64,000 nucleotides of DNA, taken from the NCBI RefSeq assembly GCF_021764745.1, contig NZ_JAETXX010000001.1:372001-436000 (forward strand), given 5' to 3'. The position numbers and the translations under genes are program-made. The notes under the pieces were generated by a model. It worked only from the letters and a program-made list of their open reading frames with translations, was not told the origin of the DNA and did not search any database. Positions 474 to 15,842 of the stretch are shown piece after piece (the stretch's first letter is position 1; every line of letters starts with the position of its first letter). This stretch comes from Joostella atrarenae (GTDB taxonomy: Bacteria; Bacteroidota; Bacteroidia; Flavobacteriales; Flavobacteriaceae).

Positions 474-481
474 TATCTTTG
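474..481 (+). promoter_or_regulatory. Bacteroidota -7 promoter element of queD
   Basis: TATCTTTG matches TAnnTTTG exactly and lies 20 nt before the queD ATG at 501. No clear -33 TTG is visible at the expected distance. The position supports the ATG at 501 over any start further upstream. Confidence 0.6.
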
Positions 482-500
482 CAATAAATTATGTGAGGTT

Positions 501-1012: not shown

Positions 1013-1041
1013 AAAAAAAATAGTACTATAAAAACCAAAGA

Positions 1042-1803: not shown

Positions 1804-1903
1804 TTCCTTTTTTCCTCTTAATAAATCCCGTTATTAGAAACTAGCAGCGATTATATCCTGCAAACGCTTACGTTTTTGTATTTTCGTCCTTAAATATAAA
1901 GAT

Positions 1904-2970
1904 ATGGCTCGTACATTAATTATAATTTCTATTCTATTTAGCTTTTTATGCAGCAATGCGCAAGCGGTAAAAGATAGTACCATACAGGTTGGCTACACAG
2001 GTTCGGAACCCTTTTCTATTGCTGGAGAAACCCCAAAAGGTATTGCAATCGACCTATGGAGAGAAATTGCTTTAAAACCGATTTAGAATACAATCTTGTA
2101 CCTTATAAAACCGTAGATTTAGGACTTGCAGCCATTCAAGATAAAAAGATTGATGTACTTATAGGTCCGATTACAATTAACTCCGATCGTGCTTTGCGCG
2201 CAAGCTTCTCACAGCCTTATTTTGATACAGAAATGGCAATTCTAGCGCCCATTTTAGACTTAACAATTTGGGATAGAATCCAACCATTCTTTAGCTCTAC
2301 CTTTTTATATGCTGTACTTGGACTACTCCTTGTTTTAACATTTGTAGGTTTCCTTTTCTGGCTTGCAGAAGGGAAATATATGTCAGAAGAATATGGAAAT
2401 AGCGCCATTAAAGGAATTGGAAACGGAATATGGCTTGCCATTGTAACAATGACAACAGTTGGTTATGGAGATTATGCTCCAAAAACTATACTCGGAAGAT
2501 TTATAATTGGAAGCTGGATGATTATCTCGTTAATTATGGCAACTTCATTTGTAGCAGGGATTGCAACAACATTATCTATTACTAGTAAGGAAGGAAAAAC
2601 AATTACTTCTCTTTCACATTTGGACAATAAAATGGTGGCAATACCCGCAAATCAACGATTAATTAACAATGTAAATCTTGTAGGAGGAAAGCCTGTAATT
2701 GTTTCTAATGCTAAAGAAGGATATTCTAAATTATTAAATGGGGAAGTAGACGCCTTGGTTTACGATGTAATCCCATTAGAATATGTATTTGAAAACAGTA
2801 AAAAATCGGACTTTGTAATCAGCAAGAAAAATATATTCCCTCAACATTATGGTTTTGCTTTCCAAGAAGCAAATGCTCTTAAAAAAAAAATTGACCTTGA
2901 GCTCCTAAAGCTAAAAGAAGGTGATGCCGTTACTAGGATTATAAATACTTGGATAAATAATAACGAATAA
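1904..2970 (+). pseudogene. GluR0-like ligand-gated ion channel (SBP + K+-pore), reading frame interrupted by one base at ~2077
   Basis: Two frames together encode one protein. The first (1904-2086) gives a signal peptide (cleavage near CSNAQA) and the start of a periplasmic solute-binding domain, then hits TAG. The second, in the -1 frame, continues the same domain without loss (TDLEYN..., FSQPYFD). It then has a membrane helix, a pore loop with the K+-channel filter TVGYGD, a second helix and the second lobe of the binding domain. This SBP-TM-P-TM-SBP order is that of prokaryotic ionotropic glutamate receptors (GluR0 type). The junction falls exactly on TTTAAAA (2071-2077), a canonical -1 slippery heptamer. 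It is therefore a decayed gene, a homopolymer error, or a programmed frameshift. A 7-of-8 match to the -7 box (TATTTTCG) lies at 1879-1886. Confidence 0.75.
2071..2077 (+). other. Slippery heptamer T TTA AAA at the frame junction
   Basis: In the upstream frame the codons read GCT TTA AAA CCG ATT TAG. Slipping back one base re-pairs both tRNAs on TTT AAA, and the next codon becomes ACC at 2077-2079, which is exactly the frame of the downstream segment. A weak hairpin TACAA-tc-TTGTA follows shortly after. Such heptamers are common by chance in AT-rich DNA, so function is unproven. Confidence 0.4.
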
Positions 2971-3020
2971 ATCTAATCGATAATGGTTTAACCATACCGA
3001 TTAGATTTAGTTATATTTTT
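2968..3020 (+). terminator. Bidirectional terminator between the channel gene and the sigma-like gene
   Basis: Perfect 12-bp inverted repeat: TAAATCTAATCG (2968-2979) and CGATTAGATTTA (2998-3009). The loop itself contains GGTTTAACC, and a T-rich stretch follows. It lies between two convergent genes and should end the long minus-strand redox operon as well as the plus-strand channel gene. Confidence 0.75.
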
Positions 3021-3035
3021 CAGAAGAAAAAATTA

Positions 3036-3722
3036 TTAATGCATGTGCTCTTTAAACTGCTGCACAGCATCATTTACTACGTTCTCAACTTTCTTAACAT
3101 CTAAATTATAAAGCTTTGCTATTTCTGTTTCTGTAAGCTTCCCAAAAGTTTTAAGATCTATAATACTAGATACACATTCTGGGAGTAATTTATAAAAATT
3201 CCCTACCGTTGCATTATCAGAATGGTATACTTCATTATGAAGATCAAATGTAGAAATCACTTCTGTATTTGCAGTTTCATCTTGATAAACCATATCAAAA
3301 TCATTCTGCTGGTTATAAGAAATATCGTCTAAGTCTTTATAAAGAACAACCTCATTCCCTGCATCAACAAAATATTCAATCTCCAAAGATTGTAATTCCC
3401 CTTTTAAAAAATCATCAGAATTTTCTGTGTTAGAATTTTGAATCTCTTTTGCAAAGACACTTTTTAAAATATCATCTACAACTTTAAACAACAGTAGTTT
3501 TGTATCACCACCTTTTTCCTGAAGGTTATCCTCATAAATTTTTAAAATAGCATCATCTATAATACCAGTAGAATTATATAAGTTTCTCGGAAGAATCCCT
3601 TTGCTTTCTGCTACATATAAACGGTGTTTTACATAAGGATGTAAAAACTCCATATAAGAAAGTATGTCTTTATCAAAAGCCGTTGGGCTATCCTTTTCCT
3701 TTAATTTTTCTAATGATTTCAT
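3036..3722 (-). CDS. Sigma-70-like protein (divergent), last gene of the redox operon
   Basis: 228 residues. The N-terminal third (LPRNLYNSTGIIDDAILKIYE) resembles sigma region 2. The C-terminal part (LPECVSSIIDLKTFGKLTETEIAKLYNLDVKKVENVV) reads like region 4: a conserved LPE, then a helix-turn-helix with the TETEIAK and VKKVE helices. An acidic, poorly conserved linker of about 70 residues lies between. The -10-recognition aromatic cluster of region 2 is not obvious, so it may be a sigma-like regulator rather than an active factor. The gene starts 27 nt after the aldo/keto reductase and ends at a strong terminator, so it is very likely transcribed with the redox genes. Family assignment is my reading of weak motifs; function is unknown. 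Confidence 0.5.
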   Translation of the reverse strand: MKSLEKLKEKDSPTAFDKDILSYMEFLHPYVKHRLYVAESKGILPRNLYNSTGIIDDAILKIYEDNLQEKGGDTKLLLFKVVDDILKSVFAKEIQNSNTENSDDFLKGELQSLEIEYFVDAGNEVVLYKDLDDISYNQQNDFDMVYQDETANTEVISTFDLHNEVYHSDNATVGNFYKLLPECVSSIIDLKTFGKLTETEIAKLYNLDVKKVENVVNDAVQQFKEHMH

Positions 3723-3749
3723 ATAATTGTTTTATACTGTTTTAACTTC

Positions 3750-4712
3750 TTAATGCCAATTTAACTCACTACGCTCCTTCCAATAGAAATCACTTTCTAC
3801 TGATAGCTCATTAAGCTGGGTAGTTTCCTCTTCCGTAAGTTTAAAGTTATACGCTTTTAAATTCGCTTCTAATTGCGAGCTGGATGAAGCACCGCTTAAA
3901 ACTATAGAGGGTGCTAATGCATCCATGCAAAAACGCAACGCTACAGCATCAGCTCCTACATTATATTTCGCAGCTAGCTTTTCTAACAAAGCATACATAT
4001 TTTTATACGCAGGGTAATTCTCATTCTCAAAAACTCTCCCGTTTGCTAAAGCTTCTTTTATAATTACAGTTTTACCATTTGCTAATGCACTCTTTAAAAT
4101 AGCATTGGTACTGTTTTCTAATATATTATAGGTAACCTGAAAGCTATCAAATAATTCTTCTCCATTTACGACAACATCGAGCCCTTTTTGAATAATAGTT
4201 TTTTGATTCTCCCCACTAGAAGTCAGTCCTATTTTTAATCCATATTCAGACTTAATCTCTGCAAGCTTTTCTAAAACTTCTTTATTTTCTAACACCCCGC
4301 TTTCCAGCGTTGCAGAATGTATTTGGTAATATTTAAGATTCGGAAGTAACTTTTTTGATACCTCCCATTGCCCAAATAATTTTGCAAGTGAATGCTCTTT
4401 TATTTCATGCTTTCCATCATACCCCAACTCCCAATCGGCAACATATGTATATCCCCATTTTGTTCCTAAGAAAACACCTTGATGACTTCTTGTATCATTC
4501 CACTCCTGAAGATATTTTTCTCCTTTTCCATACGACGGCGCAGTATCATAATAACGAACTCCCTGCTCATAGGCATCATCTAAAACTTTAAAGGCATTTT
4601 TTTTAAATGTCTCTTCAGATTTATTGCTAACCGCAGTTTGCTTGACATTTATATATTCAGGCCGCCCTAATGCAGCTAAACCGATTCCTATAATAGTTTT
4701 AGCTCCTGCCAT
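3750..4712 (-). CDS. Aldo/keto reductase family oxidoreductase
   Basis: 320 residues, usual AKR length, predicted cytosolic NADPH-dependent carbonyl reductase. The catalytic tetrad is visible: D56 and Y61 (YYDTAPSYG), K85 (GTKWGY) and H132 (YYQIHSA). The barrel continues with GLTSSG and the C-terminal VLSGASSSSQLEAN cofactor loop. Its start abuts the stop of the upstream zinc-ribbon gene with no gap. Substrate unknown; in this redox cluster a role in detoxifying reactive carbonyls or aldehydes is plausible inference. The N-terminal segment between strands 1 and 2 (PEYINVKQTAVSNKSEE) is longer than in canonical AKRs. Confidence 0.85.
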   Translation of the reverse strand: MAGAKTIIGIGLAALGRPEYINVKQTAVSNKSEETFKKNAFKVLDDAYEQGVRYYDTAPSYGKGEKYLQEWNDTRSHQGVFLGTKWGYTYVADWELGYDGKHEIKEHSLAKLFGQWEVSKKLLPNLKYYQIHSATLESGVLENKEVLEKLAEIKSEYGLKIGLTSSGENQKTIIQKGLDVVVNGEELFDSFQVTYNILENSTNAILKSALANGKTVIIKEALANGRVFENENYPAYKNMYALLEKLAAKYNVGADAVALRFCMDALAPSIVLSGASSSSQLEANLKAYNFKLTEEETTQLNELSVESDFYWKERSELNWH

Positions 4713-4988
4713 TTAATCGTATTTAATCTGGCAAGTAGCGCAAGTGTATGTATTTTCATCTATTATAATACCATTGATATGTTTGGTAACTATTTCTTTA
4801 ATGAAACTATTGTAAGTATCGTCCATAGGACTGATATTTTTAGCTCTCATAAGTTCATAGAAATGCCCATCCCATTCTTGGCTCCCCCAACAATTTGGAC
4901 AAACTCCCTCTGGTGCTTTTCCCGTTGCTTCTTTGTTTTCTTTTTTCTTGAAGTACTCTTTTATATTATCTATGATTGTAGCTTTCAT
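4713..4988 (-). CDS. Small zinc-ribbon-like protein, unknown function
   Basis: 91 residues. Two CxxC pairs at C30/C33 (CPNC) and C83/C86 (CATC) could form one zinc ribbon holding together a ~50-residue helical insert. Basic N-terminus with K-rich stretch. No signal peptide or membrane helix. It sits between the OsmC-hydrolase fusion (18 nt upstream) and the aldo/keto reductase (0 nt), so it belongs to the redox operon. I do not recognise a named family. The paired cysteines could bind metal or be a thiol redox switch; the sequence alone does not decide. Confidence 0.75.
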   Translation of the reverse strand: MKATIIDNIKEYFKKKENKEATGKAPEGVCPNCWGSQEWDGHFYELMRAKNISPMDDTYNSFIKEIVTKHINGIIIDENTYTCATCQIKYD

Positions 4989-5006
4989 GTTTATTAAATT
5001 TTTTAT

Positions 5007-6224
5007 TTATATCTCTTCTGTTTCTATAATTACTTCACTTTGTAATGTTCTATGAACAGGACATTTTGAAGCTATTTCTTTTAACTTTTTTCGTTGTGTA
5101 TCATCTAGGTTCCCTATAAACTTTAACTTCTTAGAGAGATGATCTATTTTACCAGATTTCTCAACATCTATCATCAAATCGTCAGAATGCTTTTTAGAAT
5201 GTGTAACATATACATAAACTTCCTCCAGCTCCCATTCTTTTCTCTCTGCATATAATTTAACTGTCATTGCAGAACAAGCAGCTAATCCTGCACTTAAAAA
5301 ATCGTAAGGTCCAGGACCAAAATCATCTCCCCCTATACTTCCAGGCTCATCAGCTATAAAAGAATGTTTTTTGGTTTGTATATTGGTTGTAAAATTATCC
5401 TCTTTAAGGTTTAAATGCGCTACCAACTGCTCTCCATTAGTTCCAAGCATTTCATTTTCTTGAGGTTTGATATATCGCTGCACCCATGTCCCTATAATAT
5501 CACCTACATACTCGCTATCAACAGACTTAGATAAAAGGTGATCTGCATCATCTAGGCTGACAAAACTTTTAGGATGAATTGCATTATGATATAATTCGTG
5601 TGCATTTTCTATACCTACTGTTTTATCAAAAGGAGCATGCATAATTAGCAAGGGTTTTCTTAAAGATTTTACAATCTCAGGAAGATTGGTCTTATCAAAA
5701 TCTTTGACAAACTCTTCATCAATAGCAAATGGCCTTCCACCTATATTCACCTCAACATTTCCTTTGCTTTCTATATCATCAATCTGATGAGAAAACAGAT
5801 GCTTAACATGACTAACAGAAGCAGGAGCTCCTATAGTTGCTACTGCTTTAATATTTTTTAATTTTGATGCTGCTACTAGAACTGCAGCACCTCCTAATGA
5901 ATGCCCTACCAATAATGTTGGTGCTTGAAGGTTTTCTGCCAAATATTCATTTACGGCAATTAAATCGTCCACATTAGCAGAAAAATGGCTTTCTGCAAAC
6001 TCTCCTTCACTCTGTCCTAATCCTGTAAAGTCAAACCTTACAACTCCAAAGCCATGATTTGTAAGCGACCGACTCACATTTCTTACTGCATTAAAACTAC
6101 TATTACATGTAAAACAATGAGCAAAAATCACATAATTATTAGGTTTCTGATTTGCTGGTAATTCTAAATGAGCTTGTAGTTTATATCCCTTTTTATTGGT
6201 AATTTCTAATTTTGAACTTTTCAT
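5007..6224 (-). CDS. Alpha/beta hydrolase - OsmC family fusion protein
   Basis: 405 residues, two domains. Residues ~1-255 are an alpha/beta hydrolase with the nucleophile elbow GHS109LGG, an oxyanion-side HCFTC and a late Asp/His region (DDADHLL). Residues ~275-400 are an OsmC/Ohr-like domain with its two peroxidatic-type cysteines in GLAACSAM and KCPVHRTL. OsmC proteins reduce organic hydroperoxides in the cytosol using dithiols; the hydrolase partner may release or process acylated or peroxidised substrates (inference). The fusion is a known architecture in bacteria. The gene is 11 nt downstream of the MsrA-like gene. Both catalytic sites look intact. Confidence 0.88.
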
Positions 6225-6235
6225 TAGGCGGAATT

Positions 6236-6739
6236 TTATTGTATATGACTTAACTTCTCTTTCCTAGTGTATGCAGAAAAATCGGTTAATAATTTTTTTA
6301 ACTTCGGATTAATATAACTTTTACAAAAAGGCTTTTCCGTATCGTTATAATAATAATTATGGAACATCTCCTCGGAAGCTTTAAAGCTTTCAAATGAGAA
6401 AACGCTGGTAACAATTGGCTCACTGAAATCTTTCTGTAACTTCATTATTGCTTGCGATGCTTCTTTTTTCTGTTCTTCTGAAAAAACATACACAGCAGAT
6501 TTGTATAAATCACGACGACTATGATTAACAGTACATTTATGTGTGTGCAAATGAATTTTAATAAGAACTTCTAGAGAAATTTCGTCTGGATTAAAATGAA
6601 CTATAACCGCTTCCGAGAATTCCTCAGGTGCAGATTGTGAAGCTATAAAACCCTGATCGACTTTCTGAATGCCAATTAAAGATTGATAAATGGCTTCCAT
6701 ACACCAATAACAACTTCCTCCAAAAGCAATTTTTTCCAT
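6236..6739 (-). CDS. Divergent MsrA-like peptide-methionine (S)-S-oxide reductase
   Basis: 167 residues. The MsrA active-site loop is kept as GGSC10YWCMEA, with the catalytic Cys at position 10. The central motif seen in the second MsrA of this window (HDPTTMNRQGADVGSQYRS) is shortened and altered here to [17 protein letters not shown], adding an extra Cys. The AKLxxLH-type C-terminus is also changed. So it is MsrA by fold and active-site loop but likely differs in substrate or recycling. It is encoded 4 nt after a DUF427 gene inside the redox operon, and 5 kb from a canonical msrA. Catalytic activity is probable, not certain. Confidence 0.75.
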
Positions 6740-6743
6740 TACA

Positions 6744-7034
6744 TTAACCCTCTTGTATTTCTATACCTTTCCAAAAGGCAACATAGCCTTCAATATCTCT
6801 TGCTAAAGGAGATGCTTTTGGATAATACCAAGCAGCATCTTCATTCACTTTTCCATCCACCTCAACAGAGTAATAGAAAGCTTTTCCCTTCCATGGGCAT
6901 GTAGTGTGCGTTTCCGTTTCTTTAAAAAACTCTTTACGAATACTATCTTCAGGAAAATAAATATTCCCTTCAATACTCTTTGTTTCGTTGCTTTCTGCTA
7001 AAACTTCATCATTCCAAACTGCTCTGTATCTCAT
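6744..7034 (-). CDS. DUF427 domain protein
   Basis: 96 residues, single-domain DUF427, a small beta-rich cytosolic family of unknown biochemical role. Recognisable features are the opening RAVWNDEVLAES, the central THTTCPWKGKAFYYSVEVDG and the AAWYYPKASP...EGYVAFWKG ending. The conserved CPWKG Cys is present. It lies 5 nt downstream of a CPGC redoxin and 4 nt upstream of the MsrA-like gene, so it is almost certainly co-expressed with them. The context suggests a link to oxidative stress, but that is inference. Confidence 0.88.
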   Translation of the reverse strand: MRYRAVWNDEVLAESNETKSIEGNIYFPEDSIRKEFFKETETHTTCPWKGKAFYYSVEVDGKVNEDAAWYYPKASPLARDIEGYVAFWKGIEIQEG

Positions 7035-7039
7035 CCTTC

Positions 7040-7498
7040 TTAGTTTTGCGTTAATTCTTTTATTTTGAGGTCTAATCGTAATAATGCGTTATTGGGATCG
7101 GAGCCAAAAATAGACTGAATCACAACTCCATCTTTGTTTACCAAAAGCCAATGCGGCGTTCCTCCTGCTTTATATTCATTAAAAGTCTTTGCTTCTGGCA
7201 GATCTCGATAATAAGGGAACCTTATATAAAATTCTTCCTTAGCAGCCATGAGCTCTTCGTCTGAGTAGGTACGACCCTCAAACCGTGTATGAATTCCTAT
7301 TACCTGTACTCCAGAATCTTCATAAACAATTCTATTTGCAAACGGGATTGCTCGGCCTTTACATCCGGGGCATCCCATATAAAAAAACATTATTAACAAC
7401 GGTTTCCCCTTGTAAGACTCTACATTTGGAACTTCATCATTTTCAAAAATTGGTTTAAGCAACCACTCCGGAAGCGGTTTCCCTTCTAATGTTTCCAT
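7040..7498 (-). CDS. Thioredoxin-fold redoxin (TlpA/AhpC-TSA-like) with CPGC motif
   Basis: 152 residues. Thioredoxin fold with the redox motif C43-P-G-C46 (FYMGCPGCKGRA) and the cis-Pro loop as GGTPHWLLVNKDG. No signal peptide is visible, so it appears cytosolic, unlike typical periplasmic TlpA. Likely role: thiol-disulfide exchange, perhaps reducing the Msr or OsmC enzymes encoded in the same operon (inference). It overlaps the upstream membrane-protein gene by one base (TAATG-like coupling). A second CPGC redoxin is encoded at 11125-11616. The pair share the CPGC and GGTP motifs and are probably paralogues. Confidence 0.82.
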   Translation of the reverse strand: METLEGKPLPEWLLKPIFENDEVPNVESYKGKPLLIMFFYMGCPGCKGRAIPFANRIVYEDSGVQVIGIHTRFEGRTYSDEELMAAKEEFYIRFPYYRDLPEAKTFNEYKAGGTPHWLLVNKDGVVIQSIFGSDPNNALLRLDLKIKELTQN

Positions 7499-7887
7499 TA
7501 CATCAAATGGTTATTATCAAATTGAATTCTTCTAATAATTACTGTTCGCGAAGCATATACTATCAAAATAGAAATTCCAATAAACATCAATACAGTTCCC
7601 ACATACAAAATAAGACTAGGTAGGCTCCAAATAGACTCCACTTCATAAATAGCTCCCATAATTCCTGAAAGCACATAACATCCAGTAGCAGTATATAAAA
7701 GAGTGCTTGCTCTGGTTAACAATCCCAATTGCTTGATCTTTCTATTTGCGATATCATGCTGGAAAGAGTTGCATTTTTTTGAAATTAACCCTGCTATTTC
7801 ACTACTTAAACCCATCATTTGGGTAGCCGTTGACAGAATTAGCATTCCTAGCCCAGGCAGTATCGTTATCGGTATATACCAATTCAT
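7498..7887 (-). CDS. Small membrane protein, DUF2721-like
   Basis: 129 residues with three hydrophobic segments (about residues 5-27, 65-85 and 92-112). A polar loop follows the first helix (ISKKCNSFQHDIANRKIKQLGLLTRAS), ending in an amphipathic RRIQF tail. The helix-loop-two-helices layout and the LLTRAS stretch resemble DUF2721 membrane proteins; I am only moderately sure of the family. No function is known. Its place between an AhpD-like gene (4 nt) and a CPGC redoxin (1-nt overlap) suggests a membrane partner for the redox enzymes. Confidence 0.7.
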   Translation of the reverse strand: MNWYIPITILPGLGMLILSTATQMMGLSSEIAGLISKKCNSFQHDIANRKIKQLGLLTRASTLLYTATGCYVLSGIMGAIYEVESIWSLPSLILYVGTVLMFIGISILIVYASRTVIIRRIQFDNNHLM

Positions 7888-7891
7888 TTTT

Positions 7892-8353
7892 TTACTTTAA
7901 AATTGGCGTTTCCCCTTGTGCTAATTTAAGGCGAGTCCACAAATTCATATTAATAACAATTGCAGCTATTTCTGCGATCTCTTCTGTTGAGAAAAATTTA
8001 GCTAAATCATCATGATATTTCTGGAAATTTTTATGAGTTCCCTCAGAAAGTACATCTGTATAAGCAAGAGCTGCTTTTTCTTTGTCAGTGAATAAATCAC
8101 TATTCCACCATGAAGATATATTATCTGTTTTAGTCTCAGAAATACCTATTTCTCTTGAAGTCTTAGCATGTAATATCACACAAAAAGCACATTCATTTTT
8201 TTGAGCAACTCTCAAACGAAGCAATTGTGCTAAATGTTTGTCTGTTTTTAAATCAGCTGTATAACCAAAAGCAGATGCTAATTGTTTTGCTAACCCAAGA
8301 AAAGGTGTTATTTCTGGATCAAATCTTTTGTTTTCGAATGTTACATCTTCCAT
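7892..8353 (-). CDS. Carboxymuconolactone decarboxylase / AhpD-like alkylhydroperoxidase
   Basis: 153 residues, all-helical AhpD-like fold. The redox centre is C55-A-F-C58 followed by H62 (ECAFCVILHAK), the CxxCxxxH arrangement of AhpD-type peroxidases. A second typical helix follows (FTDKEKAALAYTDVLSE). Expected activity is peroxidase with a thiol donor, in the cytosol. In AhpD itself lipoyl-dihydrolipoamide is the electron donor; no such partner is encoded here, so the CPGC redoxins of the operon are candidates (inference). It is 4 nt from both neighbours. Confidence 0.88.
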   Translation of the reverse strand: MEDVTFENKRFDPEITPFLGLAKQLASAFGYTADLKTDKHLAQLLRLRVAQKNECAFCVILHAKTSREIGISETKTDNISSWWNSDLFTDKEKAALAYTDVLSEGTHKNFQKYHDDLAKFFSTEEIAEIAAIVINMNLWTRLKLAQGETPILK

Positions 8354-8357
8354 AAAT

Positions 8358-8606
8358 CTATAGTTTTTTATAATTTTTTAAAAAGTGAATCACCTTCTGC
8401 TGCGGCATTTCACATGGTTTTAAATTCTCTGCAGTACTAGTTATATAATAATTCAAACTTATAAAATCATTACCCCCTAGCTCTTCTGCATATACTTTTA
8501 TACTTTTCCCTGCATTAAAATCTGTTCGCGTAACACCATATTTCTTTAGCTGATATTCCACTTCAGAATAACCCAATGGTAGCTCTTTAATACTTTCGAG
8601 AATCAT
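8358..8606 (-). CDS. Conserved small protein of the msr/selO cluster, unknown function
   Basis: 82 residues, no signal peptide, no membrane helix. Visible pattern: LPLGYSEVEYQLKKYGVTRTDFN, then KSIKVYAEELGGNDFISLNYY, then KPCEMPQQKVIHFL. It shares one base with the DM13 gene upstream and is 4 nt from the AhpD-like gene, so it is tightly co-expressed. I recall near-identical flavobacterial proteins labelled only as peptide methionine sulfoxide reductase, but none of the MsrA or MsrB motifs is present here, so that label looks like name transfer from the neighbourhood. The single Cys in PCEMP is the only obvious reactive residue. Confidence 0.75.
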   Translation of the reverse strand: MILESIKELPLGYSEVEYQLKKYGVTRTDFNAGKSIKVYAEELGGNDFISLNYYITSTAENLKPCEMPQQKVIHFLKNYKKL

Positions 8607-9004
8607 TATTCTTTAATATTAACTCCTCCCCATACAACAGAAAACTTACGGCAATGAATTACTAAGGAATTAAAATCACTTAAATTAGTTCCAGATGGGA
8701 TTTTGTATTTCTGAGCTCCTTTATTTGATGTTAACTCAGCTACAAAAACACCCCCTTCTTGATCTACAGCATCTCTGTTATTAATTTCTTCCATTTTAAG
8801 TGGAGATAAGTAGAGCTTTAAATCTGGGCCTGTTAGCGTGTAAAAATTATCGGCAAGTACAAAATATTTATCATCTCCATCTTCTTCTATGCTCCAGTCT
8901 CCTTTTACATCGTACACCTTGTCCACCCATTCATTTCCACTTTGAGCAATTCCATCTGTGTTTGTCATAACTACCAATAATAACGTTAATAAGATTGTTT
9001 TCAT
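8606..9004 (-). CDS. Secreted DM13-domain protein
   Basis: 132 residues with an N-terminal signal peptide (cleavage near TDGIAQS). The remainder is one DM13 domain: VYDVKGDWSIEEDGDDKYFVLADNFYTLTG, then GPDLKLYLSP, and near the end the conserved Cys strand VIHCRKFSVVWGGVNI. DM13 is a beta-rich module proposed to act in redox or haem-linked electron transfer, usually in larger proteins; here it stands alone in the cell envelope. It lies 14 nt after selO in the operon. It is the only clearly exported soluble product of the cluster, suggesting that the system also acts on the envelope (inference). Confidence 0.82.
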   Translation of the reverse strand: MKTILLTLLLVVMTNTDGIAQSGNEWVDKVYDVKGDWSIEEDGDDKYFVLADNFYTLTGPDLKLYLSPLKMEEINNRDAVDQEGGVFVAELTSNKGAQKYKIPSGTNLSDFNSLVIHCRKFSVVWGGVNIKE

Positions 9005-9018
9005 TTTTTTAAATTTGG

Positions 9019-10599
9019 TTAAGAACTACATGATAACATCGAACATCCAACTTTATGGCGTGCCCAATCTGGACGCTTTGCAAACCATTTTTCTTTGTCG
9101 GGCTGTTCGCTGTATGGCTGTTTTAATAATTGAAATAATTCTTCAATTAAAGAATAATCTCCCTTATCTGCGGCATCTATTGCTAATTGAGCCATATAAT
9201 TTCTAAGAACATATTTTGGATTTACTTGATTCATTCTCTCAGTTCGCTCCCTTTTCGTTAAGGTTTCTTCTTTTAATCGCTTACTGTATAAAACAAACCA
9301 ATCTTTCCATTTCTTTAAAATATCATTTGAAACATCTTCAAAAACATATAAAGCTTCCTTAAGAATTGCATCTCCGCTCTCAACATTCGTAAATTTACTC
9401 AAATTTCTGAAAAAAATCGTCATATCTGTTTCTGATAATTCTAAATTTTCCTCTAATTGTAGAATTAAAGCTGCATCTTGATTACTTTCTTCATACAAAC
9501 CGAGTTTTTCTTTCATCATTTTCAGCGATTTGACTTCAAACGCAGACTTATAATCATTTAATATTTTCTCTAAAGGAGCTGCTTCATCTACCAAAGGATA
9601 AATAGCATTTGCTAATTGATAAAGATTCCATAGTCCAATATTTGGCTGGTTCCCGAAGCGATATCTCTTATGCTGAGCGTCTGTAGTGTTTGGCGTCCAT
9701 CCAAAATCAAATCCTTCCAACCACCCGTATGGGCCATAGTCTATTGTTAATCCTAAAATCGACATATTATCGGTATTTAGAACTCCATGAACAAAACCAA
9801 CCCGTTGCCAATGGAGTATAGTTTCTAATGTGCGATCTGCAACCTCCTTAAAAAATTCAACATAAACTTCTTTAGATGGCGCTCCCAAGTGTGGGTAGAA
9901 GTGTTTAATTGTATAGTCCGCTAATTTCTTTAAATTTTCATGGTCTCCTCTAGCTGCAAAAATTTCAAAACTTCCGAAGCGAATAAAAGAAGGTGCTACT
10001 CTACAAACTACAGCACCCTTTTCATAATCTGGATTTCCATTATAAAGAACATCTCTAAGAACACTATCTCCAGTTAAAGCAAGAGACAACGCTCTTGTTG
10101 TTGGAACTCCTAAATAATACATCGCCTCACTACATAAATACTCTCGGATAGAAGAACGTAAGACCGCCAAACCATCTGCAGATCTAGAATATGGTGTTTC
10201 TCCAGCTCCTTTTAACTGTAATGCCCATCGTTTATCATTATGAACAACTTCACCTAGATTAATAGCACGCCCGTCGCCAAGTTGTCCAGCCCAATTTCCA
10301 AATTGATGTCCTCCGTAACACATAGCGTAGGGTTTGCTGTTAGATAAAACCTCATTTCCTGTAAACACTTTTAAAAATGCATCAGAGTTTTTATCACTCT
10401 CCGATAATCCTATTTCATCCAACATAGCATCAGAAACATGGATAAGTTCCGGATCCGCTGTTTTTTTTGGAGTTACATACGAATAGAAAGACTCTTTTAC
10501 TTGCCTTCTAGAATTTTCCATAATTGGATCTCCTGGAAGCTCTTCGCTAAAGGTATCTTGTATATTTAGTTTTAATTTGCTCACTATATTAATGTTCAA
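9019..10599 (-). CDS. selO: SelO / YdiU family pseudokinase protein adenylyltransferase
   Basis: 526 residues, full length for the family. SelO binds ATP in flipped orientation and AMPylates Ser, Thr or Tyr of target proteins linked to redox homeostasis. Visible motifs: YGGHQFGNWAGQLGDGRA near residue 95-110, QLKGAGETPYSR, the catalytic-loop region HGVLNTDNMSILG, and DYGPYGWLEGFD. It ends in C519-x-x-x-x-C524-S-S; in eukaryotic SelO the equivalent last Cys is selenocysteine. The 5' end overlaps the glutaredoxin-GNAT gene by 11 nt, and DM13 follows after 14 nt. The msr, osmC and redoxin neighbours agree with the oxidative-stress role known for SelO. Confidence 0.95.
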   Translation of the reverse strand: MNINIVSKLKLNIQDTFSEELPGDPIMENSRRQVKESFYSYVTPKKTADPELIHVSDAMLDEIGLSESDKNSDAFLKVFTGNEVLSNSKPYAMCYGGHQFGNWAGQLGDGRAINLGEVVHNDKRWALQLKGAGETPYSRSADGLAVLRSSIREYLCSEAMYYLGVPTTRALSLALTGDSVLRDVLYNGNPDYEKGAVVCRVAPSFIRFGSFEIFAARGDHENLKKLADYTIKHFYPHLGAPSKEVYVEFFKEVADRTLETILHWQRVGFVHGVLNTDNMSILGLTIDYGPYGWLEGFDFGWTPNTTDAQHKRYRFGNQPNIGLWNLYQLANAIYPLVDEAAPLEKILNDYKSAFEVKSLKMMKEKLGLYEESNQDAALILQLEENLELSETDMTIFFRNLSKFTNVESGDAILKEALYVFEDVSNDILKKWKDWFVLYSKRLKEETLTKRERTERMNQVNPKYVLRNYMAQLAIDAADKGDYSLIEELFQLLKQPYSEQPDKEKWFAKRPDWARHKVGCSMLSCSS

Positions 10600-11125
10600 T
10601 TATATTTTTCCACTTATCACTTCTGCTAGCCACTGCTCTTACATACGTACATACAGCAACTGCTTTGTATCCCTCTTCGGTTAATTTTTCAAAAGTTTTT
10701 TCAACCAACTCTTTTCCTATTCCTCTACCTCTAAGCTGTACAGGAACTTCTGAGTGATTTAAATACATTTTTCCATTTTTTAATTGGTATTCAACTTTCG
10801 CTTGTGCTCCATTGATATCCAATATGAATTCATTGTTCTGTTTGTCGTGTTCTATATCCAAAATTGACGGTATTAATTTGTTAATCCACTTATTGAGCTC
10901 TTTTTTATTCGGGTTTCTTAATTTCTTTGTTCCGATGGTGATCGTTGGAAAGTTTAATTTACCCGATTCATATAGACTTCTTAATTCTATTGCGTATTCC
11001 TCATTCTCCTCTACATCGAGAAATAAAAAAGGAAGCCCACGCGCTTCTAGCAATAATTGATAGTAGCGCGTTTTATGACAACCTTCTGCCCCATATAATT
11101 TAATTTCTGGGATATTCTTAATCAT
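10589..11125 (-). CDS. Glutaredoxin-like / GNAT acetyltransferase (YjdJ-type) fusion
   Basis: 178 residues in two parts. Residues ~6-85 look like a glutaredoxin: IKLYGAEGC16HKTRYY for the active-site loop, a central FPTITIG cis-Pro strand and a KKELNKWINKL closing helix. The motif is CHKT, a monothiol type with only one Cys. Residues ~90-178 are a minimal GNAT domain of the YjdJ class: VEYQLKNGKMYLNHSEVP, the acetyl-CoA loop LRGRGIGKELVEK, then AVCTYVRA and SDKWKNII. It overlaps selO by 11 nt and shares a base with the upstream redoxin gene. A protein joining thiol redox sensing to acetyl transfer would fit a regulator or repair enzyme (inference). Confidence 0.82.
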   Translation of the reverse strand: MIKNIPEIKLYGAEGCHKTRYYQLLLEARGLPFLFLDVEENEEYAIELRSLYESGKLNFPTITIGTKKLRNPNKKELNKWINKLIPSILDIEHDKQNNEFILDINGAQAKVEYQLKNGKMYLNHSEVPVQLRGRGIGKELVEKTFEKLTEEGYKAVAVCTYVRAVASRSDKWKNIIEH

Positions 11126-11616
11126 TAAATTGTTTTTAAAAATGCTATTGCATTATCTACATTTACATGAAAATCTGCAAAAACTACATTATCATGCTTA
11201 TCAATAAAAATAAACCAAGGTGTCCCTCCAGTTTGGTAATTGGTTAATATTTTAGATCTATTCCCTGTAGATTCATCTCCAGGATCATGACCAAAAGGGA
11301 TTGCTAGGTTATATTTCTTTTGAGTCTCTATCATTTTCTCATACGTATTGGCATCGTGTCCTTCAAAAACGGTTTGAATCGCTAAAAATTCTACACTTTC
11401 ATTATCTTTTAATGCCTCTACCATCTTTTGCAATGCAGGAAGTCCTTGACTATGACAACCTGGACACCAACTTTGGAAACAATAAATCACCTTAAATTTA
11501 CCATTATAATCCGACAATTTAATAGGAGAAGTCTTATTTCCGTTAGCATCAACCCAAGAATCTACTTGAAATTCTGGAGCTTTAAATATTTCTTTTTCTT
11601 GTTTATCAGTATTCAT
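11125..11616 (-). CDS. Thioredoxin-like redoxin with CPGC motif, first gene of the main redox unit
   Basis: 163 residues, TlpA/AhpC-TSA-like thioredoxin fold. Redox centre C51-P-G-C54 (CFQSWCPGCHSQG), cis-Pro loop TGGTPWFIFIDK. No signal peptide, so probably cytosolic. It shares its last base pair region with the start of the glutaredoxin-GNAT gene. A terminator lies 57 nt upstream (11673-11703), so transcription of the 14-gene unit 11616-3036 probably begins in the short gap here, although no exact TAnnTTTG box is visible there. Likely electron carrier for the peroxidases and Msr enzymes downstream (inference). Confidence 0.82.
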   Translation of the reverse strand: MNTDKQEKEIFKAPEFQVDSWVDANGNKTSPIKLSDYNGKFKVIYCFQSWCPGCHSQGLPALQKMVEALKDNESVEFLAIQTVFEGHDANTYEKMIETQKKYNLAIPFGHDPGDESTGNRSKILTNYQTGGTPWFIFIDKHDNVVFADFHVNVDNAIAFLKTI

Positions 11617-11672
11617 ATATATTGCCTTTCTTTTATTGTCTCTATGGATTTCTTTGAGACGGTTGACTTAAT

Positions 11673-11703
11673 AAAAAAAGCACCTAAGATTACTCTTAGA
11701 TGC
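11673..11703 (-). terminator. Intrinsic terminator after msrA (minus strand)
   Basis: Stem of 10 bp with one mismatch: GCACCTAAGA (11680-11689) against TCTTAGATGC (11694-11703), loop TTAC. Read on the minus strand it is followed by seven T (A-run 11673-11679). It separates msrBA from the long redox operon. Confidence 0.75.
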
Positions 11704-11739
11704 TAATTCATGTTAACTAAGTAATAATCAAAATTTCAA

Positions 11740-12291
11740 TTAAGAAACTGTCTTTTTTAACTTATCAGCATGCATTTTTCGTAGTTTGGCCAACTTTGGT
11801 GTAATAACCGCACTACAATAACCTTGTGCTTGATTGTTTTTATAATAATCTTGATGGTAATCTTCAGCTTCAAAAAACTCTCCTATTGGACTGATTTCTG
11901 TAACTATAGGCCCATCATAAAATGGATCTATTTGTTTTGCAACCTCAGTTGCTATTTTCTTTTGTTCATCAGAATGATAATATATCACTGAGCGGTATTG
12001 AGAACCTACATCTGCTCCTTGACGATTCATAGTTGTTGGATCGTGACTTGTCATAAAAATAACCAACAAGTCTTCATAAGAAATAACACTAGGATCAAAA
12101 CTAATTTGAATAACCTCAGCATGTCCAGTTAATCCAGAACATACTTCTCTATAGGTAGGTCTTCCTGGAGCGTTTCCTCCAGTATACCCAGAAACTACTT
12201 TTTCTACACCATTTACTTCTTGAAAAATGGCTTCGATACACCAAAAACATCCTCCACCTACAGTCGCTAATTCATAATTTTTATTTGTCAT
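11740..12291 (-). CDS. msrA: Peptide-methionine (S)-S-oxide reductase MsrA
   Basis: 183 residues, canonical MsrA. Active site GGGC15FWCIEA, substrate and acid residues in GLTGHAEVIQ and DPTTMNRQGADVGSQYRS, and C-terminal Cys region NQAQGYCSAVITPKL for recycling. Reduces the S epimer of methionine sulfoxide in proteins and free Met in the cytosol. Its start overlaps the end of msrB by 11 nt, so the two are translationally coupled. A terminator follows within 40 nt. A divergent MsrA paralogue is encoded at 6236-6739. Confidence 0.96.
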   Translation of the reverse strand: MTNKNYELATVGGGCFWCIEAIFQEVNGVEKVVSGYTGGNAPGRPTYREVCSGLTGHAEVIQISFDPSVISYEDLLVIFMTSHDPTTMNRQGADVGSQYRSVIYYHSDEQKKIATEVAKQIDPFYDGPIVTEISPIGEFFEAEDYHQDYYKNNQAQGYCSAVITPKLAKLRKMHADKLKKTVS

Positions 12292-12739
12292 TATCTTTCC
12301 TTTCTAATTTAATTGATTCTGAATTTATACAATATCGTAATCCACTTGGTTCTGGACCATCTGGAAATACGTGTCCTTGATGCGCGTCACAAGTATTACA
12401 TAAAACCTCTACACGCACCATTCCAAAAGAGCTATCTTTTATATACTTAATAGCGTTCTCTTTAATTGGTTGTGTAAAACTAGGCCAACCAGAACTCGAG
12501 TCGTATTTTATGGTAGAATCGAACAATGGAGTATCGCAACACACACAATTATATTTACCAGCATCATAAATAGAGCATAGAGCTCCAGAATGTGCCATTT
12601 CTGTTCCTTTTAAACGTGTAATTCTAAACTGCTCTGGAGTAAGTAATTCTTTCCATTCTGCTTCTGTTTTTTCTACACGTCTATCTGGTTCCGGATTCCC
12701 TTTTACAGAGAAATTAATAACATCTTTCCAAGTTAACAT
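12281..12739 (-). CDS. msrB: Peptide-methionine (R)-S-oxide reductase MsrB
   Basis: 152 residues, cytosolic MsrB for the R epimer of methionine sulfoxide. Zinc cysteines C65/C68 (CVCC) and C114/C117 (CNTC), GWPSFTQP, AHQGHVFPDGP, and catalytic C137 in LRYCINS are all present. No signal peptide. First gene of the msrBA pair; with the 14 genes downstream it forms the redox block of 3.0-12.7 kb. Upstream is a 324-bp gene-free stretch likely to hold the promoter. Confidence 0.96.
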   Translation of the reverse strand: MLTWKDVINFSVKGNPEPDRRVEKTEAEWKELLTPEQFRITRLKGTEMAHSGALCSIYDAGKYNCVCCDTPLFDSTIKYDSSSGWPSFTQPIKENAIKYIKDSSFGMVRVEVLCNTCDAHQGHVFPDGPEPSGLRYCINSESIKLERKDNDK

Positions 12740-13063
12740 ACTATAGTGTCCTTTCTTTTTTAGTTAAGTAATAATTTTCTTGAATTTGCACCTCGAAATA
12801 TTTAGATACAAATTAATAGTCGTATTTAGTTTCAATTCCTTACAATTTTGAATTTATACTATCACCACTACGCATCTAAAGTTATAGAATTTAATCCTGA
12901 TAATAAAGGAATAATACTATTTAAATGGTATTTATATTTAAGTGAAGCTTCTATAGCTTACATTTCACATACTATAAACTCCCATATGAATCACAACTAA
13001 TATAATTAAGAGATTGGGAATTATTTAGATTGAAGAAGGAATCTTTAGAAGACAAATAAAATG
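12740..13063. other. Gene-free AT-rich stretch upstream of msrB
   Basis: About 324 bp between the recJ stop and the msrB start, both genes on minus. No open frame with recognisable content, tRNA or strong hairpin. A near -7 box for msrB (minus strand TTAATTTG, 7 of 8) lies around 12812-12819. A short imperfect palindrome (ATACTATTTAAATGGTAT) is visible near 12905-12925. Otherwise I see nothing in it. Confidence 0.4.
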
Positions 13064-14752
13064 TTATTTGATATCCTTTACTTTTAACTGAAGGGAAACT
13101 ACTCCGTTCCACTCATTTTCATCAATAGCATACACGGCAGCAAATGTCTGTTTTCCTTTTATAGCTTCTATTTTACTTCCTAAATTAAATCCAATCCCAC
13201 CGATAGAAGGCCCTCCATTTTGAGATACATTTATTTTAAGGTGACTATTATCCTGACCTACACATTTACTATAGCCTGTATCTTTAAGGTTTTGTGTAAG
13301 AAAAACAGGCGATAAATTTCCTGGCCCAAAGGGAGCAAACTGCTTAAGGATGCGATAAAACTTTGGTGTTATATCTTTTAATTCAATTTCTGTATCGATA
13401 AGAATCTCTGGAGTTAATAGGTTTTTATCTATTGTTGCTGAAACTACTTCTTCAAACTTAGTTTTAAAACCTTGATATTGCGCTGGTTTTAAAGTAAGTC
13501 CAGCTGCATATTTATGACCTCCAAATTGCTCCAGATGATCTTCGCATGCCTCAATTGCATTATAAACATCGAAACCTTTTACCGAACGTGCAGAAGCGGC
13601 TAACTTATCGCCACTTTTAGTAAAAACTAATGTTGGGCGGTAGTAATTTTCAATAAGTCTCGAAGCAACAATTCCTATAACTCCTTTATGCCAAGTTTCG
13701 TTAAAAACAACCGAAGTAAAATTTGTCTCTTCATTATTCTCTTGAATCTGAAGAATAGCCTCTTGTGTAATCTGCTGATCTAAAGTTTTTCGATCCGCAT
13801 TAAAAACTCCAATTTCTTCAGCATAAGCTTTGGCAAGATCTTCATTCTTTTCAGTAAGTAACTGAACAGCATATAACCCATGCTTCATTCTTCCTGCAGC
13901 ATTTATCCTTGGAGCTACCACAAAGACAACATCGGTTATAGTTAGTTCTTTTTTAAGCTGTTCTGTAAAAGCTTTTATTCCAGGTCTAGGATTACTATTT
14001 ATTACCTTTAAACCATGAAAAGCTAAGGCTCTATTCTCTCCAGTAATGGGCACGATATCTGCACCAATAGCTGTTGCTACTAAATCTAAATATGGGATAA
14101 AATCTTCTATAGTTTCTCCTCTACGCGATCCTAAAGCCTGAATCAACTTAAAACCAACACCACAACCACATAATTCATCATAAGGGTAATTGCAATCTTC
14201 TTGTTTAGGATCGAGAATAGCTACAGCATCTGGAATTACATCGCCCGGTCTATGGTGATCGCAAATAATAAAATCAATCCCTTTTTCTTTGGCATAAGCA
14301 ACCTTATCCACAGCTTTTATTCCGCAGTCTAAAGCTATTATCAAAGAAACACCGTTATCATCTGCAAAATCTATCCCTAAAGTAGAGACTCCATAACCTT
14401 CTTTATATCTGTCTGGAATATATGTTGCTACATTAGGGTAAAGCGTTAACAAATAGGACGACATTAATGACACTGCCGTAGTACCATCAACGTCATAATC
14501 GCCATATACCAATATACTCTCTCCATCTGCAATCGCCTGTTCAATTCTAGATACAGCTTTGCCCATATCTTTCATTAAAAAAGGATCATGAAGATCGTTT
14601 AAAGAAGGGCGAAAGAATTTTTTTGCTTCCTCGTAATTTGTAATTCCTCGTTGTATTAACAATGAAGCAATAAGATTATCTACCCCTAAAGCTACAGAAA
14701 GCTCTTGTACAGCTTCCTTTGGCGGCATTGCTTTTACAGTCCAACGAGTCAT
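13064..14752 (-). CDS. recJ: Single-stranded-DNA-specific exonuclease RecJ
   Basis: 562 residues. 5'-3' ssDNA exonuclease of recombination and mismatch repair. DHH-family metal motifs: DYDVDG at 85-90, LDCGIKA, DHH (ICDHHRPGD) and DP (ILDPKQEDCNY), then the DHHA1 region with GRMKHG and GGHKYAAGL, and a C-terminal OB-like domain (FAPFGPGNLSPVF). Length is normal for Bacteroidota RecJ. Cytosolic. 22 nt upstream lies an osmC-family gene on the same strand. Confidence 0.95.
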   Translation of the reverse strand: MTRWTVKAMPPKEAVQELSVALGVDNLIASLLIQRGITNYEEAKKFFRPSLNDLHDPFLMKDMGKAVSRIEQAIADGESILVYGDYDVDGTTAVSLMSSYLLTLYPNVATYIPDRYKEGYGVSTLGIDFADDNGVSLIIALDCGIKAVDKVAYAKEKGIDFIICDHHRPGDVIPDAVAILDPKQEDCNYPYDELCGCGVGFKLIQALGSRRGETIEDFIPYLDLVATAIGADIVPITGENRALAFHGLKVINSNPRPGIKAFTEQLKKELTITDVVFVVAPRINAAGRMKHGLYAVQLLTEKNEDLAKAYAEEIGVFNADRKTLDQQITQEAILQIQENNEETNFTSVVFNETWHKGVIGIVASRLIENYYRPTLVFTKSGDKLAASARSVKGFDVYNAIEACEDHLEQFGGHKYAAGLTLKPAQYQGFKTKFEEVVSATIDKNLLTPEILIDTEIELKDITPKFYRILKQFAPFGPGNLSPVFLTQNLKDTGYSKCVGQDNSHLKINVSQNGGPSIGGIGFNLGSKIEAIKGKQTFAAVYAIDENEWNGVVSLQLKVKDIK

Positions 14753-14774
14753 ATATAATTACGAATTTTGAGTT

Positions 14775-15200
14775 TTATGAGTTATGAAAAATGGTTTCTA
14801 TTTTAACTTCAGCAAAACGACGGAACATTTCCATCACGCCACAATAAGTTTCTACAGATAAATCTACAGCACGTTGTAATTTTTTCTCAGCTAAATCTGT
14901 ACCGTAAAAATGATATTCTACCGTTACTTTATTGTAATATTTAGGGTGCTCATCTGTAAGTTCAGCGTGGATATCGATTCTAAAATCTTCTACATCTAAC
15001 TTCATCTTTTTTATCATTGAAGCTACATCTAAACCTGAACATCCTGCCAAAGCAGATAACATTAAAGCTTTAGGTCTTAATCCATCTCCATTTCCTCCAT
15101 CGTCTGGACTTGCATCGATAATTAATTCTCCTGCTGGATTAGTAGAATGAAATTGCATATTCTTTTTCCAGGTAGTAATTACGGTATTTGTAGTTCCCAT
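14775..15200 (-). CDS. OsmC family peroxiredoxin-like protein
   Basis: 141 residues, single OsmC domain. Conserved cysteines are C54 (LSALAGCSGLDVASM) and C120 (SVETYCGVMEMFRR). The family detoxifies organic hydroperoxides in the cytosol. Second OsmC domain of the window besides the fusion at 5007-6224. An exact -7 box on the minus strand lies 24 nt upstream of the start. It is followed after 22 nt by recJ, which it may drive. Confidence 0.9.
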   Translation of the reverse strand: MGTTNTVITTWKKNMQFHSTNPAGELIIDASPDDGGNGDGLRPKALMLSALAGCSGLDVASMIKKMKLDVEDFRIDIHAELTDEHPKYYNKVTVEYHFYGTDLAEKKLQRAVDLSVETYCGVMEMFRRFAEVKIETIFHNS

Positions 15201-15223
15201 TTATATGAATTTAAAGTGAACCT

Positions 15224-15231
15224 CAAAAATA
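15224..15231 (-). promoter_or_regulatory. -7 promoter element of the osmC-family gene
   Basis: On the minus strand TATTTTTG, an exact TAnnTTTG match, 24 nt upstream of the ATG at 15200. No convincing -33 TTG. Confidence 0.45.
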
Positions 15232-15272
15232 CGCATTCTACTAAGAATACACTTTGTTTTTATAGCTGCTTC

Positions 15273-15842
15273 CTATAAAATTGTTTTTATTTTTTGCTGA
15301 AAAACGGGTAACACAGTGGCTTCAAACCACTTATTTTTTGCCATCCAAAAACGATTGGTAGGTGAAGGATGTGGAATTGGAAAAATCTCTGGAAGGAAAT
15401 CATTATAGTTTCGTACTGTTTCTGTGAGATTCTTATGAAACCTGTCTCCCAAATAATTTTTCTGAGCATACTGTCCAATTAATATTGTTAACGATACATT
15501 TTGCATCTCGCTCAATACTTTGTCATGCCATTGCGGTTTACATTCTGGCCTTGGAGGTAAATCTCCAGTCTTACCTTTGCCGGGGTAACAGAATCCCATT
15601 GGCATCACGGCTACTTTTTTAGTATTATAAAAGTCTTCTTCGCTAATTCCCATCCAAGAACGGAGCTTTTTCCCACTTGCATCATCAAAATCTTTACCGC
15701 TATTATGCGCTTTAATTCCTGGCGCCTGACCAATAATTAATATTTTGGCTTCTTTCGATACTCTAAGAATCGGTTTTGGAGGTAAAGGCAGAAAATCTAC
15801 ACAGACTTGACATTTACTTATTTCATGTAGCAGCTTTTCCAT
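15273..15842 (-). CDS. Uracil-DNA glycosylase family protein
   Basis: 189 residues, UDG-superfamily alpha/beta fold. Motif A as IIGQAPG (38-42) and motif B as PHPSPTNRFW near residue 165 are clear. Between them are KDFDDASGKKLRSWMG and the PGKGKTGDLPPRPEC loop typical of the short UDG-like proteins often found in Proteobacteria and Bacteroidota. A CxxC at positions 11-14 (CQVC) resembles the start of an Fe-S-cluster UDG, but further cluster cysteines are not obvious. Likely excises uracil or a related base from DNA; activity not established for this branch. Confidence 0.82.
   Translation of the reverse strand: MEKLLHEISKCQVCVDFLPLPPKPILRVSKEAKILIIGQAPGIKAHNSGKDFDDASGKKLRSWMGISEEDFYNTKKVAVMPMGFCYPGKGKTGDLPPRPECKPQWHDKVLSEMQNVSLTILIGQYAQKNYLGDRFHKNLTETVRNYNDFLPEIFPIPHPSPTNRFWMAKNKWFEATVLPVFQQKIKTIL

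Follow-up and report, generated by a model that had tools for sequence, protein, structure and literature searches.

What holds together the 16 minus-strand open reading frames (ORFs) that fill positions 3036-12739 of a 64,000-nucleotide (nt) stretch of Joostella atrarenae DNA (this whole stretch is called the window; its source genome comprises 4.0 Mb in 71 contigs)? The initial annotation saw in them a coordinated protein-repair system around SelO and the methionine sulfoxide reductases (Msr), laid out as 16 genes with short gaps or overlaps and one 123-nt gap that contains a terminator, and this layout agrees with the ORF spacing and the hairpin that we found (Table 1, which also gives the gene names used below). 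We conclude, with moderate confidence, that the block is one form of a modular operon of the Flavobacteriaceae for methionine sulfoxide and thiol repair, nucleated by msrB-msrA, to which other parts, selO among them, are added.

msrB-msrA is the fixed centre of the block

Is the arrangement peculiar to one strain? The family sample consisted of 249 genomes from the same family as the window, and selO was matched in 89 of them, one match (genome G074, E 7e-4) being taken as spurious. The selO loci numbered 88, the window and 87 others, each taken together with roughly 9-10 kb of sequence to either side, although some are truncated by the end of a contig. Within 3 kb of selO and on its strand, msrA was found in 59 loci and msrB in 53, whereas the flanking genes that served as an internal control, recJ and a uracil-DNA-glycosylase (UDG) family gene, were there in five and one, respectively, which contradicts linkage in this strain only. 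By the same measure msrA2 and the OsmC-hydrolase were near selO in 28 loci each, the aldo/keto reductase in 21, a gene here called F4 (approximately 1230 residues, with a calcineurin-like phosphoesterase domain) in 19, p82 in 11, DUF427 and glutaredoxin (Grx) alone in 10 each, rdx1 in nine, GNAT alone in six, rdx2 in five and DM13 in three. AhpD, the DUF2721-like gene, the zinc-ribbon gene and the fused Grx-GNAT gene were each near selO in a single locus, which for the fusion was the window itself. A similar arrangement is found in Galbibacter orientalis (locus L089), with 12 of the 16 genes in identical order and without AhpD, the DUF2721-like gene, rdx2 and the sigma-like gene.

Is selO, then, the centre around which these genes gather? 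A profile search of the 249 genomes for the Grx domain, whose active site is CHKT or CHKS, gave 47 matches at 1e-3, 24 of them strong (<1e-30); the weaker 23 include remnants with stops and double-CPDC Grx proteins fused to a thioredoxin-reductase-like flavoprotein. All 24 strong-Grx genomes have msrA and msrB on the Grx strand at a distance of at most 3 kb; by this measure rdx1 is there in 17, msrA2 in 15, the OsmC-hydrolase in 14 and selO in 11, and in the 13 strong-Grx loci without selO nearby msrB-msrA lay upstream of Grx in every one. A second set comprised the best 80 of 146 loci from a scan that used the Grx alignment together with motif patterns, so that motif conservation in it is partly by construction; at least nine of the 80 share an identical protein with family-sample loci, and the sets cannot therefore count as independent. 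In this set selO was present in 35 of the 80 loci. We therefore rejected selO as the fixed centre (Grx-Msr linkage in 24 of 24 genomes versus selO in 11 of 24): msrB-msrA forms the constant centre, which selO joins in some loci and not in others. Of a block around SelO and Msr, as originally proposed, the Msr core stands and the central place of SelO does not.

Which of the other genes belong to the system? Those that recur are msrB, msrA, rdx1, grx, gnat, p82, DUF427, msrA2, the OsmC-hydrolase, the zinc-ribbon gene and the aldo/keto reductase gene. DM13 was seen, among the loci fetched, only in the window, in two loci of the same genus (L002 and L064) and in G. orientalis; counting the window, AhpD was found in eight fetched loci, the DUF2721-like gene in six and zinc-ribbon homologues in 24; no fetched locus other than the window has the sigma-like gene. 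Of the four unnamed genes said to travel with the redox genes, DUF427, p82 and the zinc-ribbon gene are among the recurrent members; the DUF2721-like gene is rare. A redox/repair cluster is thus linked in many Flavobacteriaceae, although not one that has all 16 genes as fixed members. The gene at 3036-3722 we rejected as an established member because its profile match is weak and it was labelled in no other fetched locus; it probably lies outside the conserved system.

Some relatives carry additional genes. EgtB- and EgtD-like genes (recognized by Pfam domains; of the ergothioneine-type biosynthesis) are found at most 8 kb from selO in seven of the 88 loci and come after the OsmC-hydrolase in the selO run (L017, L020, L040, L053, L056, L061, L074); J. 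atrarenae has an EgtB-EgtD-like pair elsewhere, on contig 2, which scores 269.5 versus 290.9 bits with the EgtD model. As a separate observation, XdhC/CoxI-like and MobA-like genes, of the molybdenum-enzyme maturation type, occur later in the run in L104, L113, L121, L123, L132, L139, L140, L144, L148, L150, L157, L158 and L160.

Co-occurrence over the 249 genomes, assessed by hypergeometric tests that ignore phylogeny, exceeded expectation for Grx and MsrA2 (19 of 24 genomes, 8.2 expected, p 2.7e-6; 17 within 10 kb), for MsrA2 and SelO (45 genomes, 30.0 expected, p 3e-5; 28 within 10 kb), for p82 and SelO (20 genomes, 11.3 expected, p 7.5e-4) and for Grx and p82 (eight genomes, 3.1 expected, p 0.005). 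On a FastTree phylogeny of 118 msrBA pairs, from loci picked by selO, Grx or p82 and with a few records present twice, the nearness of selO needs at least 22 changes, Grx 16, p82 13 and the fused versus single state of Grx and GNAT eight, from which it seems that parts joined or left msrBA repeatedly. Beyond the family sample, searches of 296 genomes sampled from the phylum found p82 in two genomes and strong Grx in two, in both cases J. atrarenae and a member of the same family (G029), with weaker Grx matches inside far longer open frames in three further genomes.

The Grx-GNAT protein and the MsrA2-p82 pair

We regard the Grx-GNAT protein as the best lead from the block and as a candidate CoAredoxin. 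Classical Grx active sites are CPYC or CGFS, and the Grx half matches neither; it also falls below the classical Grx cut-off (Table 1). It nevertheless has the glutaredoxin fold, with Foldseek matches to several Grx (e.g., 3ic4, TMt 0.69, E 1.1e-4), and the GNAT half is of the CG type, matching the At1g77540-CoA complex 2il4 (TMt 0.82) as well as YjdJ. The two-domain model has a pLDDT of 93.8 and a pTM of 0.83. The active site is CHKT or CHKS in 93 of 94 distinct Grx domains and CHKC in one, part of this set having been selected by pattern on the motif; the nearest Grx domain in the Grx-scan set, from G. orientalis, is 90% identical.

A single slot, before selO or after msrA, holds Grx alone, GNAT alone or the fusion. 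Full-length fusions were found in 28 of the 80 Grx-scan loci and, judged by open-frame length, in four of the 24 strong-Grx family genomes; in L115 the fusion is split over two frames, and in genome G181 a remnant of Grx, interrupted by three stops, lies next to selO and an intact GNAT. That fused, separate and remnant forms occupy one slot indicates that the halves belong together, yet each may also persist without the other, and this speaks against the strictest version of the CoAredoxin idea. In that version GNAT would no longer acetylate but hold CoA, whose thiol would resolve the mixed disulfide at the single Grx cysteine, C16, with the near-invariant GNAT C159 as a relay, so that CoA-protected or oxidized Msr and other proteins would be reduced by CoA, with tuning by SelO AMPylation where SelO is present; we consider it improbable. 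Of 27 aligned fusions, 26 retain the GNAT cysteine. For GNA1, a GNAT-family enzyme, a disulfide between a conserved active-site cysteine and CoA is described in a crystal but was not seen in yeast cells (PMC3413214). Literature to May 2026, to the extent consulted, describes CoAredoxins (deCoAlases), which would act on protein-CoA mixed disulfides, as still to be identified.

Which low-molecular-weight thiol would such a Grx use? The genome encodes BshA (568.9 versus 273.7 bits) and BshC (478.4 versus 265.8 bits) for bacillithiol, whereas the glutathione synthetase model reaches 85.9 versus 299.05 bits and is under its cut-off (glutamate-cysteine ligase was not searched, and uptake is possible). 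With this set of thiol genes, a glutathione role for this Grx appears unlikely, and the protein probably acts as a redoxin linked to bacillithiol or CoA in the service of Msr enzymes. Bacillithiol has been reported from Bacteroidetes (PMC10950700). A plausible electron source is a protein of 468-485 residues with two CPDC Grx domains and a thioredoxin-reductase-like flavoprotein, which lies in the run in L101, L114, L122, L142 and L154 and on the other strand in L129. In the J. atrarenae genome no match spans both parts of this fusion, the best flavoprotein match beginning past the Grx part, and the label was left unused for selO loci because the FAD part can match unrelated flavoproteins.

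The second pair that stands out is MsrA2 and p82. MsrA2 occurs in 85 of the 249 genomes (E <= 1e-30) and scores above the MsrA cut-off, with the catalytic cysteine in G(G/S)C(H/Y/F)W; the motif is GGCHWC in 72 of 80 labelled ORFs and GSCYWC in J. atrarenae. Alignment of 17 of the 80 rows shows that the Glu-containing segment is retained, and in most rows a C-terminal cysteine, but that the canonical loops GGNAPGRPTYREVCSGLTGHAE and NRQGADxGxQYRS are shortened and replaced, and these two changed loops suggest that MsrA2 may have another substrate. The gene for p82, found in 32 of the 249 genomes (12 within 10 kb of selO), co-occurs with MsrA2 in 27 of those 32 (10.9 expected, p 4.8e-10; 19 within 10 kb). 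Where p82 is not near selO, an Msr gene still lies roughly 4 kb or less from it in 14 of 20 loci. Its model is an alpha-beta5-alpha fold (pLDDT 95.6); a sequence search of the PDB gave nothing credible (best E 0.43), and in a fold search the only matches, to Ivy-like proteins, were weak (E 0.17, query TM 0.60). We conclude that p82 is probably a partner of MsrA2.

A proposed modular repair operon and its rivals

How might such an operon work? MsrB, MsrA and the divergent MsrA2 would reduce oxidized methionine, and the CPGC redoxins and the single-cysteine CHK(T/S) Grx may pass electrons back to the oxidized Msr enzymes and clear mixed disulfides. The thiol genes of the host suggest that the Grx mixed disulfide would be resolved by bacillithiol or, in fusions, perhaps by GNAT-held CoA. 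The OsmC-hydrolase, and AhpD where present, would remove organic peroxides, and SelO, for which AMPylation of redox proteins has precedent, would act as a regulator that not every locus has. The initial annotation went further and linked AMPylation, acetylation and methionine reduction; judged from sequence such a link may exist, and for its Grx-GNAT part the fusion and the common slot lend support.

Are the genes expressed together? The hairpin in the msrA-rdx1 gap, which is matched at the equivalent place in G. orientalis (-15.4 kcal/mol), cuts msrBA off from the other genes in J. atrarenae. Against shuffled sequence, sigma-70 consensus promoters in the block are no commoner than chance (41 versus 41.8), terminator-like sites number 7 versus 4.3, and the Bacteroidetes promoter element TAnnTTTG occurs four times versus 6.2 expected, with the full promoter pattern at 0 versus 2.2 (minus strand, mononucleotide shuffles); Rfam at its gathering threshold gave no match in window positions 1-16000. 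An AraC-family gene, a candidate regulator, lies immediately upstream of msrB in 13 of the 80 Grx-scan loci (L090, L091, L093, L094, L096, L100, L105, L107, L110, L111, L114, L122, L129), the place occupied by recJ in the window. In Flavobacterium johnsoniae, msrA and a SELO-family gene with a neighbouring locus number share one entry of a co-expression table, each correlating at 0.97 with another species' biosynthetic cluster (PMC12817932), which independently supports co-regulation of the two.

Several observations weigh against the modular repair operon as we propose it. With a terminator after msrA and no promoter-consensus match, co-transcription of all the genes is unproven. Conserved neighbourhood alone is no proof of shared function, because the non-redox F4 and TesB genes are conserved as well (30 and 19 of 88 loci, respectively, within 8 kb of selO). 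Grx lies within 3 kb of selO in just 11 of the 88 selO loci, the co-occurrence of Grx and SelO is modest (14 genomes versus 8.5 expected, p 0.014), and a tree-based independent-pairs test of the two found no positive association, although with four supported pairs it had no power. Six of the 20 p82 genes that lie apart from selO lack an Msr gene nearby. Finally, CHK(T/S)xYY is conserved almost equally with and without selO, which gives little sign of SelO-driven selection.

The last point bears on whether the block could instead be a switch centred on SelO, which would AMPylate the neighbouring Grx and so hold mixed disulfides in place during stress, as with E. coli GrxA, the other products being clients. 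The SelO of the window aligns over nearly its full length with Pseudomonas syringae SelO (6eac, 359.9 bits) and keeps the active-site segment HGVxNTDNMSI...(F/Y)GP, although the SelO equivalog models are not reached (NF040880, 413.5 versus 900; NF045949, 443.5 versus 850). SelO has been found to AMPylate GrxA, SucA, SodA and AcnA, with targets at GrxA Tyr13, where deglutathionylation is inhibited, and SucA Thr405, the AMP being removed by RNase Z (PMC12663964, PMC8097203). Besides this precedent, Grx and selO lie within 10 kb of each other in 11 of the 14 genomes that have both, often overlapping or abutting, and possible acceptor residues are close to the active cysteine: Thr or Ser at C+3 is near-universal, and where selO shares the locus 44 of 45 distinct Grx have Tyr at both C+5 and C+6. 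Yet the position of E. coli GrxA Tyr13 (C+2) is a Lys in the Grx alignment, the same tyrosines are present in 44 of 49 distinct Grx without selO in the locus, so that the idea of higher conservation of AMPylatable residues near selO found little support, and 10 of the 24 Grx genomes have no selO match. AMPylation of this Grx by SelO is possible but, from the residues compared, not indicated, and we regard the SelO-centred switch as doubtful.

Might the genes instead have converged upon one another, sharing induction by oxidants and no common mechanism? That content differs greatly among relatives, and that the unrelated F4 and TesB genes are conserved neighbours too, would fit this explanation, whereas the invariable linkage of Grx to Msr in the 24 genomes, the fusion and alternation of Grx and GNAT in one slot, and a co-occurrence of p82 and MsrA2 far above expectation do not; we think it unlikely. 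A chance run of redox genes in one strain would agree with the rare or private standing of DM13, AhpD, the DUF2721-like gene and the sigma-like gene in the fetched loci, but we rejected one-strain linkage on the evidence of G. orientalis and the 88 selO loci, and with the core recurring across the family such an accident is very improbable indeed. The modular operon nucleated by msrB-msrA thus remains the reading that we prefer.

Gene order, neighbours and comparison with known systems

Table 1. Features of the block in order of transcription, followed by neighbouring genes; scores are profile bits versus the curated cut-off (Pfam gathering or NCBIfam), and spacing is to the next gene (negative values, overlap).
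Feature	Position	Strand	Score or other evidence	Spacing (nt)
msrB, methionine-R-sulfoxide reductase	12281..12739	-	PF01641 157.6 vs 24.9	-11
msrA, canonical, GGCFWC ... GYC	11740..12291	-	PF01625 212.3 vs 23.7	123
Intrinsic terminator between msrA and rdx1	11679..11704	-	11-pair stem + T7, -13.0 kcal/mol	
rdx1, ResA/TlpA-like redoxin, CPGC	11125..11616	-	PF00578 48.6 vs 26	-1
grx-gnat, monothiol Grx-fold (CHKT) + CG-type GNAT	10589..11125	-	PF14542 68.7 vs 30; PF00462 20.4 vs 22.9	-11
selO, pseudokinase-fold adenylyltransferase family	9019..10599	-	PF02696 434.1 vs 22.8; NF000658 580 vs 431	14
DM13 protein, N-terminus signal-peptide-like by eye	8606..9004	-	PF10517 58.5 vs 25	-1
p82, 82 residues, motifs KYGVT, FN, KPCEM	8358..8606	-	no Pfam/NCBIfam match	4
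AhpD-like, carboxymuconolactone-decarboxylase fold, CAFC...H	7892..8353	-	PF02627 38.2 vs 23; PDB relatives e.g. 2ijc	4
Small DUF2721-like protein	7498..7887	-	PF11026 18.0 vs 28.3, under cut-off	-1
rdx2, second CPGC redoxin	7040..7498	-	PF08534 36.3 vs 26.6	5
DUF427 protein	6744..7034	-	PF04248 108.6 vs 22.1	4
msrA2, divergent MsrA, GSCYWC	6236..6739	-	PF01625 77.1 vs 23.7	11
Alpha/beta hydrolase-OsmC fusion (OsmC-hydrolase)	5007..6224	-	PF12146 61.3 vs 27; PF02566 59 vs 27.5	18
Zinc-ribbon-like protein, CPNC ... CATC	4713..4988	-	no family above cut-off	0
Aldo/keto reductase	3750..4712	-	PF00248 87.4 vs 24	27
Weakly sigma-factor-like protein, 16th gene	3036..3722	-	TIGR02985 23.4 vs 126.4; TIGR02937 18.5 vs 42.9	
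recJ, second OsmC-like gene, UDG-family gene, directly upstream	13064..15842	-	mainly genus-restricted conservation	
Ligand-gated-ion-channel-like gene, first ORF	1904..2086	+		
Ligand-gated-ion-channel-like gene, second ORF, different frame	2056..2970	+	Lig_chan, Ion_trans_2, SBP_bac_3 domains	

Most of the gene labels first given to the block are borne out by scores above the Pfam cut-offs, those of the Grx half and the DUF2721-like protein being the ones that fall under. Longer proteins of 188-239 residues that match the DUF427 profile also occur on the strand opposite to the operon in two relatives (L091:12761-13480 and L094:7663-8229). The ion-channel-like gene beside the block seems to be spread over two frames, perhaps because it has been disrupted or the sequence contains an error.

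What does the operon offer? It is a testable, lineage-specific setting for the role of SelO in bacteria that seemingly use bacillithiol; it bears on what reduces Msr enzymes in Flavobacteriaceae and on which proteins are CoA- or bacillithiol-linked redoxins; and p82 represents an uncharacterized small family with a strong genomic partner in MsrA2. A search of open-access papers found no title or opening abstract on a Grx-GNAT fusion, p82 or this Flavobacteriaceae operon, which is not proof of novelty. SelO beside Msr is already known, whereas the Grx-GNAT, MsrA2-p82 and OsmC-hydrolase parts are apparently new.

The nearest precedent is the survey of SELO/ydiU neighbourhoods by Dudkiewicz et al. 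(2012, PMC3281104), in the available portion of which msrB is significantly over-represented, msrA shows a trend, oxidative-stress genes lie nearby and aquatic bacteria are over-represented. Our loci are alike in placing SELO beside msrB, msrA and oxidative-stress genes, but Grx/GNAT, p82, MsrA2 and the OsmC-hydrolase are not described in that portion, and the fixed point here is msrBA, not selO. A reductant of the Grx rather than the thioredoxin type, as we propose, has its parallel in the MsrA of Clostridium oremlandii, a selenocysteine-containing 1-Cys enzyme that is reduced by Grx and not by thioredoxin (PMC4479559). Unlike that case, the CHK(T/S) Grx is tied by genome linkage to both MsrA and MsrB, and in a genome with bacillithiol genes. 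Mycoredoxins and bacilliredoxins are likewise Grx-fold redoxins of hosts that, as seemingly here, use a non-glutathione thiol; their active sites are of the CPxC or CGC types, whereas ours is CHK(T/S) and scores 25.5 versus 89.5 bits with the mycoredoxin model TIGR02200. The GNAT half resembles the CG-type GNATs of PF14542, At1g77540 and E. coli YjdJ, in both sequence and fold, but unlike them it is fused to a Grx-fold domain or stands in the Grx slot beside msr and selO.

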